Virus record (IMG/VR): IMGVR_UViG_3300045256_000566
Coordinates: 1-25,013 of that record
Direction: 5' to 3' (one strand)
Length of the DNA stretch: 25,013 nt
Source: a virus
Made by a program: the position numbers and the translations under genes. The stretch's first letter is position 1. Every line of letters starts with the position of its first letter. Under the pieces are notes generated by a model, which worked only from the letters and a program-made list of their open reading frames with translations, did not search any database and was not told the origin of the DNA. Of this stretch, positions 23 through 22,902 are shown in pieces.

Positions 23-955
23 TCAGGTAAATACCCAGATGTGACCTTGACTATTATTCCCGCTAGCTTTATATGTATCGCCAGCATTTACGAATCCTGA
101 GCAAGGAGCGCTCGAAGCACCTTGTATTATCACTCCATTAATAGTCAAACTAGCTGTATTACTTACGGGAACGTAATATATGTATGCTAGACTTGTAGCC
201 GTGTATAATACATTCACGTCAAACCTACTATAAATAACGGTTGGAATCTTATTCTGTTTAACAAACGCTGTAGTTGCAATTTGCGTAGTGTTGGTGCCAG
301 CCGCTGCTGTAGGTGCGGTAGGAACTCCTGTGAAGGCTGGGGAATTAATAGGTGCGGCATTCTGTTTAACAAACGCTGTAGTTGCAATTTGCGTAGTGTT
401 GGTGCCAGCCGCTGCTGTAGGTGCGGTAGGAACTCCTGTGAAGGCTGGGGAATTAATAGGTGCGGCAACATTTGCAGTAGAACCTGTTGCCATTAAGACT
501 GTACCCTGCTTTGTTGTTGTAGCTGATTGAAGATTTTGTATATCTCCGTATTGTGTCCAATACTTACTATTGGTCAAAGCATTATTATAATTATTATCAA
601 CTAAAGAAATATATACTTTAGTTGAGTTAGGAGCCAAAACCATAGCATTTTGATTATAATAAATTCCTGCGTTCCACGGCAAAATTCCATATTGTTGAAT
701 GGCGGCTATATTTTGACTCATGACAAAAGCAGGAGCAGTTTGGCTTTCTTGTATAGGTTGTTTTAATAATGTTCCAACGGTGGCAACCATAGAAGCGGCC
801 CCATTCAAAAAACTATTATTTTGTAATACATTGCCATCTGTACTATATTGTGGGGTCCCCGCAGCTGTTGAACCAGGTATTCCAACGATTTCTTGACCAG
901 AGTTTCCTATGGCATTACCGCCAAAAATTTTTTGTGGTGTAAAAGTTGAAGGCAT
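23..955 (-). CDS. Tail fibre / receptor-binding protein
   Basis: A 310-residue protein at the distal end of the tail gene block, read as a tail fibre. Residues about 90-138 look like a small carbohydrate-binding module: W94, then aromatic and Val residues, ending in KYWTQYGD. A short ATTTKQGTVLMAT segment (about 145-157) resembles fibre shaft starts. Residues 164-199 and 200-235 are two identical 36-residue copies of the SPAFTGVPTAPTA...TTAFV phage fibre repeat. The C-terminal domain of about 75 residues is rich in Tyr, Ser and Asn and would be the tip. ATG start at 955 with no Shine-Dalgarno sequence; TGA stop. It lies 15 bases after the DUF2612-like gene. The fibre role rests on the repeat family and position; the receptor is unknown. 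Confidence 0.85.
   Translation of the reverse strand: MPSTFTPQKIFGGNAIGNSGQEIVGIPGSTAAGTPQYSTDGNVLQNNSFLNGAASMVATVGTLLKQPIQESQTAPAFVMSQNIAAIQQYGILPWNAGIYYNQNAMVLAPNSTKVYISLVDNNYNNALTNSKYWTQYGDIQNLQSATTTKQGTVLMATGSTANVAAPINSPAFTGVPTAPTAAAGTNTTQIATTAFVKQNAAPINSPAFTGVPTAPTAAAGTNTTQIATTAFVKQNKIPTVIYSRFDVNVLYTATSLAYIYYVPVSNTASLTINGVIIQGASSAPCSGFVNAGDTYKASGNNSQGHIWVFT
251..466 (-). repeat. Perfect 108-bp tandem duplication in tail fibre gene
   Basis: Copies at 251-358 and 359-466 are identical base for base. Each encodes one 36-residue fibre repeat in frame. The absence of silent differences indicates a recent duplication or gene conversion, so copy number may vary between close relatives. Confidence 0.97.
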
Positions 956-2776: not shown

Positions 2777-3130
2777 TTAAGGCATAAATGATATTTCCGT
2801 TTGCAATCCATAAATATCTCTATATGTAAAATTTATGGTTATATTTCTAGTGCTTGGGTTAAAAACAGAAGTATAATTTAGAACTTCTTGGACTCCTTCC
2901 AATGATTGTACTAAACTTATGATATCTGATTTTAATAATGGCTCTTGTGCTTCGTCGCCAATTCTACTTGCCCAATCTATTCCGTTATTTAATGCAGCAA
3001 AACAGTCCCTTTTCCATTCTCTTAATTTTGTATAAATATTTAATTTTATCCCCTCACTTTGAGTTGCAAAGTTGGAAAAGCCTAGACCATACATCCAATC
3101 TCCGTTAATGTCTAATCCTCTTTGTTTCAT
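2777..3130 (-). CDS. Putative gp25/gpW-like baseplate wedge protein
   Basis: A 117-residue protein directly upstream of baseplate J, the normal place of the gp25/gpW-type wedge subunit. It contains LKWN-like N-terminal text (DINGDWMYGLGFSNFATQSE), a central WKRDCFAALNNGIDWASRIG helix, and a closing beta section (NPSTRNITINFTYRDIYG) like the end of gp25-type folds. No lysozyme catalytic residues are expected or seen. The assignment is from length, layout and gene order. A candidate promoter lies in the 84-base gap upstream. Confidence 0.6.
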   Translation of the reverse strand: MKQRGLDINGDWMYGLGFSNFATQSEGIKLNIYTKLREWKRDCFAALNNGIDWASRIGDEAQEPLLKSDIISLVQSLEGVQEVLNYTSVFNPSTRNITINFTYRDIYGLQTEISFMP

Positions 3131-3160
3131 ACATCAAACTAATTAAAACTATCCCTGATT

Positions 3161-3189
3161 TTGATATAAATAAATATTACTTTTGTCAA
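3161..3189 (-). promoter_or_regulatory. Candidate promoter before baseplate wedge genes
   Basis: On the minus strand TTGACA (3189-3184) is followed after 17 bases by TATCAA (3166-3161). Transcription would begin near 3154, about 24 bases before the ATG at 3130. The -35 is perfect and the -10 is a 4/6 match. This is the only gap of any size within the tail gene block. Confidence 0.4.
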
Positions 3190-3214
3190 TAAGTTTTTTG
3201 TTTTTATAAAAGAA

Positions 3215-3910
3215 TTATTTTAATAAAGCATTAAAAGCAGATTGTGCCGATGCCACATTGTTCAGAGCATTTGAAATATTTGCTTGCGTATTGCCATCTA
3301 ATGCTAAAGCAACCCCACTAACAGCGGGAACAGTCATAGCGGATTTTACTGCATTCCCTAATTCTGTTATAGCATTTGTTAAATTAGTGATTGCACTCAA
3401 TAAACTTCCGCTGGCATTTTTTATTCCTACTTTTGAATCTAAAGATATTTTAGTGGTTTGCTGATAAAACATTTCGGTAGCATTATTATTATGTAACCAA
3501 CTGGTAAAATCAAAAGGAATCGCTATAGCATTGTTTATATCATGCCTTATATCATTGAACGGTTGTTGTATAGTTTGATTTTGGATGAAATTATCAATAT
3601 TTGTGTCATTGAATAATAATAATACAGAATCCCCCGCTAAAATGGGTTTTGTGAACCCCGCATTTTGGGTCGCATAGCGAAATACAGGAACTTCTATCAA
3701 AGGTGCAAATTGTCTATCTATAGAAGTATTTACATTAACTATGTAATTATCAATATCTACTATTGAAATAGTAGCTGTGTTATTGCTTGGGTTATAAACA
3801 TTAATTATTCCTATTCTGTGGGCAAAAAAATCCCTGAAAATTTTGTCTTGTAATAATTCAAAATTTGAATAATAAGTGGGCGGTGAAATATAATTTTGTT
3901 GAGATTGCAT
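3215..3910 (-). CDS. Gp138-like membrane-puncturing spike protein
   Basis: A 231-residue protein between hub and wedge genes. The N-terminal domain (about residues 20-125) fits the Gp138 OB-fold family: RIGIINVYNPSNNTATISIVD, then a PVFR segment, then the GDSVLLLFNDTNIDNFI motif at about 96-112, which is very typical. Residues 125-160 form the expected linker with FYQQTTKISLDSKVGIKNASG, the start of a trimeric spike. The C-terminal 60 residues form an Ala/Asn-rich helical heptad region (LTNAITELGNAVKSA...) instead of a metal-binding HxH apex. It ends a two-base gap before the hub gene, suggesting coupled expression. Good match in motif and order. Confidence 0.75.
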   Translation of the reverse strand: MQSQQNYISPPTYYSNFELLQDKIFRDFFAHRIGIINVYNPSNNTATISIVDIDNYIVNVNTSIDRQFAPLIEVPVFRYATQNAGFTKPILAGDSVLLLFNDTNIDNFIQNQTIQQPFNDIRHDINNAIAIPFDFTSWLHNNNATEMFYQQTTKISLDSKVGIKNASGSLLSAITNLTNAITELGNAVKSAMTVPAVSGVALALDGNTQANISNALNNVASAQSAFNALLK

Positions 3911-3911
3911 A

Positions 3912-4826
3912 TTAAGAATTAGAAATAATGTTAAGAATTGTTGTACCTAAAAATAAATTTAATTTTGTAATTCCTTGGGAAGATGTTCCTTCCGAAATAG
4001 TAAGATCATGGCTCAATCCTTGGACTTTCCATTGGCCATTTATATTGCGGAATGTAGTACTCCGTACTTCTATCACTTGGCCTACGACAATTTGTGGCTC
4101 AAATAACACTTCTACATCTAAAGAATTGTCTTGTATTACTGGAGTATTCAATAACCCTGTTGCACTAGAAATCAAAGGTACAAATCCAACAAAAGCATCA
4201 TTAACGTTCATAAGGTTAATAAATCCGTTATCTATAAAAAACTGATGTTTAAAGTATTTATTTGCAAGTGTCCATGTATTAGAATTAATGGTGATGCCTC
4301 TTGTGAAAATCTTTTCTGGCGCACCAACATTGCCCATAACACCTTTCGTTAGACCAGTTTCTACAGTGCCGCTAGGCGTTTGAACATTTGATAAGCTTCC
4401 GATTATTTCTAATGCGAAATCCTGAAGAGAAAATCCTTTGTTATAAGTTTTATTTATAAAAGCGTTATTGGCGGCGAAGACACCTTCGCTAGCTAAAATT
4501 CTAGTCTCAATATTGTTTCCAACCCGTACCGAATAGGCCTGCAAAATATTTCCTGAAAATATTTCTACTAAGTTACCCGCACTATAACCAGCAGATAATG
4601 AAACAAAAGTAAAATTTGCTGTATCATATCTTGGTTTTGCTATTGCATTCCTCAAGTGTTCACCTAAATTATATACAGTAATATTAGCAGAATTAAAAGT
4701 TGAGCCAATTCCTTTTTTTATATTTGCCATAAGAGTAATGGGATAGTTAATAATCACAGCTGAACTTTTAGTCTGGTTCATTTGTACTGTTAAACTATAA
4801 AATAAATTAAATTTATCATTGCCCAT
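3912..4826 (-). CDS. Baseplate hub protein (gp27/gpD-like)
   Basis: A 304-residue protein of the phage hub type that holds the spike and connects to the tube. Features: N-terminal strands ending in IKKGIGSTFNSANITVYNLGEHLRNAI, which is a typical opening of Pam3-like hub proteins; then beta-rich sections (LVEIFSGNILQAY...); a segment FSLQDFALEIIGSL; and a C-terminal EPQIVVGQVIEVRS...GQWKVQGLSHDLTI..., the last domain of tail hub proteins. The start overlaps the plug gene by 11 bases. Assigned by motif layout and by its place between plug and spike. Confidence 0.72.
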   Translation of the reverse strand: MGNDKFNLFYSLTVQMNQTKSSAVIINYPITLMANIKKGIGSTFNSANITVYNLGEHLRNAIAKPRYDTANFTFVSLSAGYSAGNLVEIFSGNILQAYSVRVGNNIETRILASEGVFAANNAFINKTYNKGFSLQDFALEIIGSLSNVQTPSGTVETGLTKGVMGNVGAPEKIFTRGITINSNTWTLANKYFKHQFFIDNGFINLMNVNDAFVGFVPLISSATGLLNTPVIQDNSLDVEVLFEPQIVVGQVIEVRSTTFRNINGQWKVQGLSHDLTISEGTSSQGITKLNLFLGTTILNIISNS

Positions 4827-18689: not shown

Positions 18690-18992
18690 ATGCCATTGAT
18701 AGAAGGAAAATCTCAAAAAGTTATAGGGGAAAATATTAAAAAGGAAGAAAATGCTGGAAAGCCACATAAACAAGCTGTTGCTATTGCTTTAGAGAACGCA
18801 AGAAAGTCAAACGAACAAGAGGCTGATATTAAAGAAGCCGTTAGGCAAAATCTTGCTACTTTCTTAGAAAACACAGCAAAGTACAGTGAACAAAATATTG
18901 ATAGTGTCTTACAGCAAATTAAGAAAGATCATCAAGAAATTATGGAGAAGCATCAAACTTTTGCCGAATTCTTACATAAGTGGGAAAAGTAA
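18690..18992 (+). CDS. Small phage protein of the MPLI..GKSQK..IGENI type
   Basis: A 100-residue protein on the strand opposite to its neighbours, lying between large terminase and portal. The first 40 residues (GKSQKVIGENIKKEENAGKPHKQAVAIALENARKS) match a short basic protein I know as widespread in phage genomes, usually about 45 residues, of unknown function. The remaining 60 residues form a charged amphipathic helix (coiled-coil like), an added part. It has its own promoter. Opposite orientation, own control and no obvious structural role are the marks of a moron. No Shine-Dalgarno sequence is visible before the ATG. Confidence 0.75.
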   Translation: MPLIEGKSQKVIGENIKKEENAGKPHKQAVAIALENARKSNEQEADIKEAVRQNLATFLENTAKYSEQNIDSVLQQIKKDHQEIMEKHQTFAEFLHKWEK

Positions 18993-19189: not shown

Positions 19190-19204
19190 TAGATAAATTA
19201 TCTA
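19190..19204 (-). terminator. Weak AT dyad over large terminase stop
   Basis: TAGATAA, A, TTATCTA, a perfect 7-1-7 inverted repeat overlapping the stop codon of the large terminase gene. The stem is AT-only with a one-base loop and has no T run after it, so terminator function is doubtful. Confidence 0.15.
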
Positions 19205-20565
19205 AAATTTGCAATAGCTTTTTGCCAATCGTAAGATGTCATATACTTACGTGCTAGCATCCCATTTTTTATTAAATCAGAAAGACTATATCGTAAAGCG
19301 TCAATATAGTGGTCAACTCCTGCTTTATCGTCTACTTCGGGCAATATTTTGCCATTATTTTTATTTATTTTGTAGCTATAGTTTTGAAATTCTCTTATAG
19401 TCTCTTTACAACGAGGATGTATATAGATCTTATAAAAACTTTTTAGAAAATCAATTCCGTCTTCAATTTTTGTTTTATAGCATTCATATAAAGGCAGACC
19501 TTCATTACGTAAAAAGGAAATAATATCAGGTCTTGAACTATCCCCATAAATTGTAATAGGTCCTAATTGGTTTTCAAGCCGATATTCTGTTTTTCTTTCA
19601 AAATACTTTTCAATATCAGGGATTTTTTGAAACATAGCTTTTATTTGGGTCAATTCTATTCCTATGCCTCCTACCTCATAATCTATATATAAATTTTTGA
19701 CTTTAACTTCTGTATTTTCTAATAATTCTTCCTTAATAAAACATCTTATTAGGCAAGTTGGGTCTTTTGCGAAACCCCAATCGGCCCCATAATAAAATTT
19801 GTGCCCTAAAGTTTCAGCCCAATTATGTTCTTTAAACTCTTTTATTTGAAATTTATTTTTAAAAATTAACGCCTCTGAATATTCCTTAACTTTGCCCAGA
19901 AAAATGTGTTCATAATCCTCTGGGCGAAATAATTTCCAATTTTTAATTTCTTTTAAGGTGTCACTATTATTAAAAGGGTTATCATAAAAATTTACGTTGA
20001 CTACAATACTATCAGGATGAGGATTAGCTACGAATCTTTGATAAGTTTCATCTAAGGCGTTTATCGGATTAAAAGTTATCCATATCTCAGACCCTTCGGC
20101 CCGAATAGTTGGAATCAATATATCCCAGCTATTCCGCGAAACATTCGCTGCTTCTTCTACCCAGCATCTCATTACTCCTTGCAAGGATTTAATTTCTGTG
20201 GGTCTATTCCTTATACCTTTAAAAATAATATAAGAATTATTTATAGTGCAAATGATTTTGTTTTCTGTAATTTTAAAAAATTTATTTAAATTATAAAGAT
20301 CTATATATTTAACAAAAGTCGCATGGCAACTATCAGCTATAGATTCTAAAGTTTCCCGAACGACTAAAACAACAAAAGGAGTGACTTTATTTTGCATTGT
20401 GCTGACGGGTGCCCGCAACATTTCTATTAATAGCATCACCGCCACACTATCTGTTTTTGCACCTGCTCTTCCACCGTATGCTATTTTATAACGTTTTTTT
20501 TCTGTGATAAAAAATAAAAGCTTTTCGGGGATTGTGAAAGTTGTGTTATTTATATTTCCGTTCAT
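19198..20565 (-). CDS. terL: Terminase large subunit (PBSX/Terminase_3-like)
   Basis: A 455-residue DNA packaging motor. ATPase: Walker A variant YGGRAGAKT (residues 30-38; Ala where many have Ser/Gly), Walker B CWVEEA (134-139), coupling motif TFNP (164-167), then YDNPF (194-198). Nuclease: GADWGFAKDPT with D262, YGDSSRPD with D342, and DHYIDALRY with D418 and D422, forming the RNase H-like metal site. Length is typical. The ATG at 20565 overlaps the upstream stop by one base (TAATG), which indicates coupling. All catalytic residues appear intact, so it should be active. Confidence 0.95.
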   Translation of the reverse strand: MNGNINNTTFTIPEKLLFFITEKKRYKIAYGGRAGAKTDSVAVMLLIEMLRAPVSTMQNKVTPFVVLVVRETLESIADSCHATFVKYIDLYNLNKFFKITENKIICTINNSYIIFKGIRNRPTEIKSLQGVMRCWVEEAANVSRNSWDILIPTIRAEGSEIWITFNPINALDETYQRFVANPHPDSIVVNVNFYDNPFNNSDTLKEIKNWKLFRPEDYEHIFLGKVKEYSEALIFKNKFQIKEFKEHNWAETLGHKFYYGADWGFAKDPTCLIRCFIKEELLENTEVKVKNLYIDYEVGGIGIELTQIKAMFQKIPDIEKYFERKTEYRLENQLGPITIYGDSSRPDIISFLRNEGLPLYECYKTKIEDGIDFLKSFYKIYIHPRCKETIREFQNYSYKINKNNGKILPEVDDKAGVDHYIDALRYSLSDLIKNGMLARKYMTSYDWQKAIANFR

Positions 20566-21509
20566 TATTCTTTTTGTGATTGGGTTAATGTTTCTAATAT
20601 TTCTTCATCATTGCCTTTAACGGGAAGTATATTAAAATTCATTTCAGACTTATTTTCAAAACTTTTATGCGAGGTAACAATCCCGTTAATTTTAGCTAAT
20701 TGGTCCGCTTCTATCAAAGTTTTCAGAGTTTTGGCAACTAAAATTATGTTACTTCTTTCTCTTTCAGTAATACGACTCTTAATTTCATATATCTCTAAAT
20801 ATAATTTATAATCTTCTAATGATTCTCTTAAGTTCGCCTGAATCCTACTCAAATTTGCTATCTCTTCGGTAATTTTTAATTTATCTTCAAAAGCTATATT
20901 TTCTTTTGCTTTCTCAAATAATGCACTTTTCATTTGTCGCAACTCCGTTAAATCATTTAATATTTGCTCTCTTTCAGCTTCTGTTTTTTCAAAATCAGAA
21001 TTTATTTTTTTTATATGTTTATAGCTATTTTCTAATAAAACATTTTCTTCGGCGAATACTTCATTCCCCATCTTCATAGCAAAACTAACTTGAGGTAAAA
21101 TAGTTTCGGAGATAGTTTCCGAAAGAGTTTCCGAAATAGTTTCCGAAATAGTTTCACATTCTTTATTTGATGGTTCTTTATTTGATGGTTCTTTATTTGA
21201 TGGATTTTTCTCTTCTGCTTGCTTTTCCTTCCATAAATTTTTTTGCTTATATAATGTTCTTTTTGCTCTTTCAATTTTAATTTCTTTCACACTCTTCCTT
21301 TTTTTTCTTAAGGCATTGAAATAATTTTTAGATTTTATGTATTCATCGCTGTCTTTTTCCATAACTTTCGTTATATCAATTCCATATAAATTGCAGTATT
21401 TTTTTAGCAACGGAGTATTAGTAAAAACATTTTCTGCTACGTTAGTTCTTAAAAAAATTGTTAACTCCATATCTCTGAAATCTTTTATTTCCTTAGACAA
21501 TCTAGGCAT
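20565..21509 (-). CDS. Putative small terminase subunit-like protein with low-complexity repeats
   Basis: A 314-residue, charged and largely helical protein that overlaps the large terminase start by one base, the standard place of TerS. I find no clear TerS helix-turn-helix signature, and the protein is longer than usual TerS (about 150-200). Visible parts: basic N-terminal third (RKKRKSVKEIKIERAKRTLYKQK), three PSNKE repeats, a run of TISE/TLSE repeats, then a long coiled-coil region (about 155-265, LTELRQMKSALFEKAKENIAFEDKLKITEEIANL). The N-terminus could bind DNA and the coil could oligomerise. The function is inferred from position. Confidence 0.6.
   Translation of the reverse strand: MPRLSKEIKDFRDMELTIFLRTNVAENVFTNTPLLKKYCNLYGIDITKVMEKDSDEYIKSKNYFNALRKKRKSVKEIKIERAKRTLYKQKNLWKEKQAEEKNPSNKEPSNKEPSNKECETISETISETLSETISETILPQVSFAMKMGNEVFAEENVLLENSYKHIKKINSDFEKTEAEREQILNDLTELRQMKSALFEKAKENIAFEDKLKITEEIANLSRIQANLRESLEDYKLYLEIYEIKSRITERERSNIILVAKTLKTLIEADQLAKINGIVTSHKSFENKSEMNFNILPVKGNDEEILETLTQSQKE
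21101..21203 (-). repeat. 12-bp and 15-bp in-frame repeats in terminase partner gene
   Basis: From 21101 to about 21157 a 12-bp unit (tagtttccgaaa and near variants) occurs four and a half times and encodes the TISE/TLSE run. From 21159 to 21203 three 15-bp units (ttctttatttgatgg; the third differs slightly at its end) encode PSNKE. Confidence 0.88.
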
Positions 21510-21539
21510 ATAATATTATTTAAATTTACAATAAACCAA

Positions 21540-21568
21540 ATTTTATTTACATTTTATCATATTGTGAA
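21540..21568 (-). promoter_or_regulatory. Candidate promoter of terminase operon over a DnaA box
   Basis: On the minus strand TTCACA (21568-21563), 17 bases, TAAAAT (21545-21540): 10 of 12 consensus positions. Start would be near 21534, 25 bases before the ATG at 21509. The -35 lies inside the TTATTCACA box at 21563-21571, so an initiator protein bound there could repress the terminase genes. Confidence 0.35.
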
Positions 21569-21735
21569 TAATTTTATTTGTATTGTCAATAATTGATTTA
21601 TACTGTAAATCATTGTATTAATGTGAATGATTGTATTTATATTGTGAATATATTGTGAATAATTTTAATAAATTGTGAATAATTTTAATAAATTGTGAAT
21701 AAAATTGTGAATAATTTATTAAAAATGTCAATAAA
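21561..21735. other. Candidate replication origin: cluster of DnaA-box/iteron repeats
   Basis: The 350-base gene-free region 21510-21859 is filled with repeats. TGTGAATAA (TTATTCACA on the other strand, a perfect fit to the DnaA consensus TTATNCACA) occurs at 21563, 21654, 21674, 21694 and 21706, always in the same orientation. One- or two-base variants are at 21584, 21622, 21643 and 21726. Copies at 21654, 21674 and 21694 are 20 bases apart. Between them the DNA is almost pure A+T, as in an unwinding region. It sits between the terminase and dnaB genes, a usual place for a replicon origin. Whether host DnaA or a phage iteron-binding protein uses it cannot be told. Confidence 0.6.
21652..21691 (+). 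repeat. 20-bp tandem iterons
   Basis: attgtgaataattttaataa is repeated exactly at 21652-21671 and 21672-21691, followed by shorter copies at 21692-21703 and 21704-21715. A 16-base match is at 21561-21576. Confidence 0.9.
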
Positions 21736-21778
21736 ATAAAGGATTACTTCACAATGTTAATAAAATAAAGGATGACTT
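21724..21778 (+). repeat. Two 25-base direct repeats, 29-bp period
   Basis: aatgtcaataaaataaagga at about 21724 and aatgttaataaaataaagga at about 21753 continue as ttactt and tgactt. Only two bases differ over 25. They lie between the iterons and the dnaB start and may be binding sites for a second factor. Confidence 0.75.
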
Positions 21779-21831
21779 ATTTAACAATTCCGTTCTTTTA
21801 AATAATTTCACTTGATTAATCTTTTTTTTAA

Positions 21832-21837
21832 TATAAT
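21832..21837 (+). promoter_or_regulatory. -10 box and ribosome site before dnaB remnant
   Basis: TATAAT at 21832-21837 with no good -35 at normal spacing (TTGATT is 14 bases upstream). AAGGG at 21846-21850 is about 9 bases before the ATG at 21860, one of the few Shine-Dalgarno-like sites in the window and a reason to choose that start over TTG at 21812. Confidence 0.35.
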
Positions 21838-21859
21838 TTTAAGAAAAGGGAAATTTGAT

Positions 21860-22386
21860 ATGAAGGAATTTGATGAGAATGTTTTTTATAATCTTGCTGC
21901 GGAAGTAGATGTAATAGGGGGGCTATTGTTTGATAATAACTCAATTAATGCGGTTTCTGAATCTGTAAAAAAATCTCACTTTTATAACCCGATTCACGGG
22001 GAAATTTTTGAAGCAATAGAAAGATTGATAAACAGAAGAAGGGTGGCAGATCCTATGACAGTTGCGAATAATCTTGCAGGAAATAAAGAATTTATAGAGG
22101 CAGGCGGAATAGAATACTTATATAAAATTGCAAGCAAATACGCCGAAAGCTCTTTTGCTATAAACCTACCCGAACGTGGAAGACTTATTAAATCCCTTCA
22201 TATTGAAAGGAAATTTTTAGATGTTTTAGAATAGGAACGGCGGTGCTTCACTTTGACGCAAAAACCACTAAATTCACAGATTTTAATCCTGTTGATTATG
22301 ATGCTGTGCCAAAGCAAACTTCAGGTTACTTTTCAAATCCAAGTCAAGCAAAAGTAAAGCAAGCTTTGAAAGAGAAATTTAATTAA
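21860..22386 (+). pseudogene. dnaB: dnaB replicative helicase with ATPase core deleted
   Basis: Residues 1-124 (MKEFDENVFYNLAAEVDVIGG, GLLFDNN, HGEIFEAIERLINRRRVADPMTVANNL, EAGGIEYLYKIA) are the DnaB N-terminal domain, intact up to its last helix (LHIERKFLDVLE), then TAG at 22232-22234. Starting within that stop, in another frame, 22234-22386 encodes GTAVLHFDAKTTKFTDFNP... to ...ALKEKFN, 50 residues that read as the end of a DnaB C-terminal domain. The RecA-like ATPase with its Walker motifs, normally some 250-300 residues, is absent. The junction is near 22220-22236. It is most simply an internal deletion with a frameshift. The 124-residue N-domain can still be made. Confidence 0.78.
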
Positions 22387-22431
22387 TCATATAAACGCCT
22401 ATGAATCGGTCAAAATTTTTTACTAAATATA

Positions 22432-22459
22432 TTGTAATTTTAAAAAAGGTTTATATTTG
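22432..22459 (+). promoter_or_regulatory. Possible TTG-N17-TATATTTG promoter
   Basis: TTG (22432-22434), 17 bases, TATATTTG (22452-22459), matching the Bacteroidota-style TTG...TAnnTTTG pattern. A single instance in AT-rich DNA is weak evidence. Confidence 0.2.
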
Positions 22460-22492
22460 TAATTATGGTTGAATAAAATAATAAATAAATTT

Positions 22493-22738
22493 ATGACACA
22501 ATCCAAAAACCCAAAATATATTTTGCTTCAATTAGGGGAAAAAGATATTAAAAACCATACCTGTAGTGTATCATTTCTATCAACACTAATAGACTCAAAT
22601 CCTCCATCTTTATATCACGTATTACGTGGTGGAATATTCACATTGAAAATGTTAAATAAAATAAAAAAAATCTTCCGACATTGGAATGAGGGCGAACATT
22701 ATCAATTATATGCACCTGACATTCCAAAAACAAAATAG
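22493..22738 (+). CDS. Small protein, possible helix-turn-helix regulator
   Basis: An 81-residue protein from ATG 22493; a TTG at 22469 could add eight residues. The middle part SVSFLSTLIDSNPPSLYHVLRGGIFTLKMLNKIKKIFRHW resembles a Cro/XRE-type layout, with FLSTLI...PPSLYHVLRGG as a possible recognition helix and LKMLNKIKKI as the following helix. The identity is not certain. It lies after the dnaB remnant and converges with the recombination genes. If it binds DNA it is the only regulator gene seen in the window. No Shine-Dalgarno sequence precedes it. Confidence 0.45.
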   Translation: MTQSKNPKYILLQLGEKDIKNHTCSVSFLSTLIDSNPPSLYHVLRGGIFTLKMLNKIKKIFRHWNEGEHYQLYAPDIPKTK

Positions 22739-22834
22739 AACTTTTTTATAATAATGTTTTTCCTGCAGGTATATGATGAATAATTATATTCTTCTAAACC
22801 ATATCCTACCCTCTTTATCTCTATAAGTTTTAGA

Positions 22835-22860
22835 TTTTTTCTTAAAAAACCAAGAAAAAA
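22835..22860. terminator. AT-rich hairpin between convergent genes
   Basis: TTTTTTCTT (22835-22843), 8-base loop, AAGAAAAAA (22852-22860), a perfect 9-bp inverted repeat in the 164-base gap between two convergent genes. Its place fits a shared terminator, but the stem is nearly all A-T and has no T run on either side. The rest of 22739-22902 shows nothing I can name. Confidence 0.3.
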
Positions 22861-22902
22861 GAGAAAAAAATAAGGTTCGTCATTGTGTAAAATTTTATTA
22901 AA

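Follow-up and report, generated by a model that had tools for sequence, protein, structure and literature searches.

How a phage comes to carry what look like the beginning and the end of a replicative helicase gene, with the middle gone, is the question raised by positions 21860 to 22386 of this viral record, whose 25,013 bases (the whole stretch analysed, hereafter the window) may be only part of a phage genome. The likelier answer is that a phage-encoded dnaB was disabled by one internal deletion of about 0.9 kb, the junction being read in a single contig. The minus strand carries a tail and head module that is apparently intact, approximately 94% of the window falls within listed ORFs with no further lesion noticed, and no Rfam families or tRNAs were found. 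The dnaB piece lies on the plus strand, 3' of an AT-rich repeat stretch, and the features that matter for the argument are as follows.

19198-20565: terminase.
About 21540-21770: AT-rich repeat stretch.
21563-21714, minus strand: five perfect DnaA boxes (TTATTCACA), all in one orientation, located by pattern scan in the AT-rich repeat stretch.
21860-22234, plus strand: 5' dnaB remnant of 124 aa, comprising the globular head and part of the first hairpin helix, recognised by PF00772, NCBIfam and solved DnaB N-domains.
22220-22243, plus strand: junction, lacking about 296-334 codons for the linker and ATPase core, placed by mapping on six full DnaBs and by three-frame translation.
22231-22386, plus strand: 3' dnaB remnant of ~50 terminal residues, read in the +2 frame with respect to the 5' part, identified by a C-terminus profile, alignment at the DnaB C-end and codon-position GC.
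22493-22738: small unknown ORF.
Minus strand: genes for a YqaJ-like exonuclease and RecT.

Elsewhere in the record, a perfect 109-base tandem duplication (window 251-467) sits inside a tail-fibre-like gene (23-955) and encodes a repeated 36-residue unit. Between the portal and terminase genes is a small plus-strand ORF (18690-18992), the first ~40 residues of which match phrog_2423 (E 2.5e-17), with 60-62% identity in L053 and L064. Upstream of the terminase, a 314-aa gene (20565-21509) contains short peptide repeats (PSNKE and ETISE units) and had no family match above cut-offs.

The 5' part is the better marked of the two remnants. Its 124-residue frame opens with the ATG at 21860, nine bases after an AGGG that would make a plausible ribosome site, and closes with a TAG at 22232-22234. 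PF00772 matched the frame with an E-value of 6.3e-23 (81 bits against a cut-off of 23) over profile positions 4-91 of 103, NCBIfam returned DnaB models only, bar one marginal chance match, a PDB search with the same residues matched solved DnaB chains, and there was no match among defence families. In that PDB search, residues 11-113 aligned to residues 30-129 of the E. coli DnaB chain. The globular head of E. coli DnaB spans residues 32-123 and its hairpin residues 124-173 (PMC6391071), and the N-part ends at about E. coli residue 140, that is, ~17 residues, or about a third, into the 50-residue hairpin; the frame thus stops within the first hairpin helix, without the second. In H. pylori, a construct of residues 1-121 (head plus helix 7) was dimeric in solution and bound primase poorly, while a construct with both hairpin helices bound it well (PMC2761005). 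By its extent the N-part can be likened to the poorly binding construct, and the “intact” N-terminal domain of the preliminary description is therefore an overstatement where primase binding is concerned; by the published boundaries what survives is the globular head and some of the first hairpin helix. The 124-residue frame may still yield a protein, probably one without function.

Directly downstream, an open frame that is +2 with respect to the N-part extends from 22207 up to the stop at 22386; read from 22231 onwards, it gives IGTAVLHFDAKTTKFTDFNPVDYDAVPKQTSGYFSNPSQAKVKQALKEKFN. This tail is too short and divergent to have found a match in Pfam or NCBIfam, or among phages by tblastn, and there was none among PDB sequences either. 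It was therefore set against a profile built from 15 DnaB C-termini, where it came first among the window's 322 open frames (E 0.006, against 3.5 for the second) and scored 11.3 bits, compared with 10.8 or less for 20,000 of its own shuffles. The GC content at its codon positions (0.47/0.35/0.26) resembles that of the phage's own genes, and the closest visible parallel is found in L192, TRFSNLAPADYDV against TKFTDFNPVDYDA. Taken alone the tail match would count as weak; it is the profile rank and the shuffles, together with the L192 parallel and the phage-like codon-position GC, that point to both halves having been one gene, and the proposal that the last ~50 residues of a DnaB lie directly downstream in a shifted frame was thereby upheld.

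When both parts were mapped on six full DnaBs, ~296-334 residues proved to be missing, so that the central loss first described is real and its size slightly larger than the 250-300 residues originally given. No match to DnaB_C (PF03796) was found elsewhere in the 25 kb record, and the three-frame translation at the junction contained no residues of the ATPase core. The locus consequently lacks the RecA-like ATPase domain (PF03796) with the Walker motifs expected of a replicative DnaB helicase, and it has no continuous single reading frame, as there is a stop at 22234 and the tail lies in another frame. Both ends of dnaB are nonetheless present, in the right order and on the right strand, as in a pseudogene, and the description of a dnaB gene with its ATPase core removed is borne out, the N-part and the tail being DnaB-like and PF03796 absent from the record. 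An intein, an intron and a programmed frameshift were considered and set aside: each would leave the core interrupted, whereas here it is missing. As a separate observation, the DnaB motif NRNGG can be read in the third frame at 22229-22243, overlapping the GTAV of the tail frame; this looks like a second, 14-base repeat collapse, and may be chance.

The sequence upstream offers a setting in which such a loss could be borne. A scan with the pattern TTATNCACA gave seven matches in the window, where 1.6 would be expected for its whole length, and five of these fell within 21563-21714. The five boxes span 152 bp between the gene on the small-terminase side and dnaB, several near matches occur besides, and the GC content over 21515-21859 is only 0.16. 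The cluster is origin-like and could possibly be a phage replication origin, which makes a dependence of the phage on host DnaA and DnaB plausible.

On the favoured reading, the deletion would have taken the remaining hairpin, the linker and the entire ATPase core and shifted the tail out of frame, leaving no helicase to be made. It would have been a single event, and a recent one, since both ends are still clean coding sequence. The phage can probably use host DnaB by way of the DnaA-box origin, and would tolerate the loss of its helicase because such an origin would let host DnaA load host DnaB. What counts for the deletion is the strong N-domain match, the rank and position of the tail, the clean coding on both sides, the lack of an ATPase domain elsewhere, the five DnaA boxes, a window that is ~94% coding, relatives that are full-length with sporadic broken copies, and the full-length dnaB of Vibrio phage 1.123.O. 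Counting against it are the single sequence across the junction, with no independent confirmation, the weak tail match and the failure to find a relative whose dnaB is intact at this position.

The search for such relatives was broad. Scans of viral contigs with the N-part, the tail, RecT, YqaJ and terminase singly brought up no relative but one near-identical contig (L001), found by its terminase, which is 99.8% identical over 4,451 bases and ends at window 21638, within the repeats and 222 bp before the dnaB piece. A terminase scan of genome contigs and of 101 genomes from a single phylum turned up no close relatives, and a megablast of 10 kb against phages gave no match. Syntenic relatives (L090, L091, L095 and L097) were found through the sheath protein. 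A further syntenic phage contig is G001:C66 (L188/L189) of 45,199 bases, which has a 93-base end overlap and is probably circular. None of these five syntenic records has a DnaB N-domain, and for that reason they give no example of an intact dnaB in this position; no close relative that does was found in either the viral contig scans or the syntenic records. The bin of G001:C66 was named Ca. Dependentiae; as it amounts to 2.4 Mb, contains three DnaBs and could be a mixture, that phylum is doubtful as the host.

Nearly all viral loci with a similar N-domain turned out to encode full-length DnaBs (about 450-560 aa), a good number of these being near-identical P1 Ban, and the six reference-phage genes that were opened, most of them vaguely annotated, were all of full-length size. 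The exceptions are L202, which has a frameshift with the remainder present, L193, with a C-terminal loss, and L207, which runs into a contig end. The first of these, a P1-like ban gene at 2977-4345 with its frameshift at ~codon 150, provides a separate instance of a phage dnaB that has broken. Among these relatives, then, there are full-length genes and isolated lesions, and no recurrence of a short stand-alone gene. Several PHROG families are pieces of DnaB, and one of them, phrog_20000, has 132 positions and covers the N-domain only; ordinary full DnaBs also match it. The literature yielded nothing direct on stand-alone or truncated phage DnaB N-domains.

An artefact of assembly or amplification is possible, if clearly less probable than a deletion: the phage would have a full dnaB whose ends were wrongly joined through a chimeric read, a minority deletion variant or a collapsed path. 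The record is a single metagenomic contig, L001 stops short of the gene, and the coding ends are undecayed, as they would be with an intact gene. Against this, 21500-22900 showed no repeat that could account for a wrong join, although one shared with the absent sequence would be invisible there. A real deletion was favoured over such an artefact because no repeat is visible near the junction and the loss of the helicase would be tolerable with a host supply.

It is quite improbable that the N-domain is a kept small protein, acting by itself as an adaptor or inhibitor in contact with host DnaB or DnaG close to the phage origin. Its frame is indeed open, with a plausible ribosome site, and adjoins the DnaA-box cluster, and the extent of phrog_20000 means that phage collections may contain short DnaB-N proteins, but that family may simply gather fragments, given its matches to ordinary full DnaBs. 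No relative with a like short gene was found, the out-of-frame 3' end is still present, as expected of a lesion, and the N-part lacks the second hairpin helix, as does the comparable H. pylori fragment that binds primase poorly (PMC2761005). The bolder version, in which a stand-alone N-domain would redirect host DnaB or DnaG to the adjoining DnaA-box origin, is a shade less credible still. A reading in which the 50 residues downstream do not belong to a DnaB, and the N-part is a short gene from some other source, can appeal to the missing database match of the tail and is scarcely believable in view of its first place among the 322 frames, its score above the shuffles and its parallel in L192. 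Of the options offered at the outset, deletion or decay and an assembly gap both stand, while the kept small protein is left without positive support.

If real, the locus is nothing out of the ordinary, a phage that has lost the replicative helicase it once encoded, and an origin with host-type DnaA boxes makes such a loss plausible; internal deletion or assembly gap, it is ordinary either way. Its main value is as a caution: even where an N-domain reads cleanly and could be translated, annotating it as a helicase or a regulator calls for a second sequence that spans the junction. A novel means of capturing the host replisome would be indicated only if the short gene turned out to be conserved.

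Among known systems, the phage DnaB helicases (PHROG 19; NCBIfam TIGR03600 and TIGR00665; P1 Ban) resemble the window gene in the N-domain (about 27-37% identity), in a DnaB-like C-terminal end and in the order of the two, but they also have the linker and ATPase core, for about 450-500 aa in all, whereas the window gene has neither and its end is out of frame. The N-domain constructs of E. coli (1B79, 1JWE) and H. pylori (1-121, 3GXV) are of near-equal extent, with the head and little or part of the hairpin, but these are laboratory constructs from working helicases, not natural genes. The broken genes L202 and L193 are likewise phage or prophage dnaB copies unable to give a full helicase, although the former keeps the whole remainder and the latter loses its end, whereas the window gene loses its middle. 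P1 ban is itself dispensable in dnaB+ hosts. In Vibrio phage 1.123.O, dnaB is also divergent from the small terminase gene, but there it is full-length.
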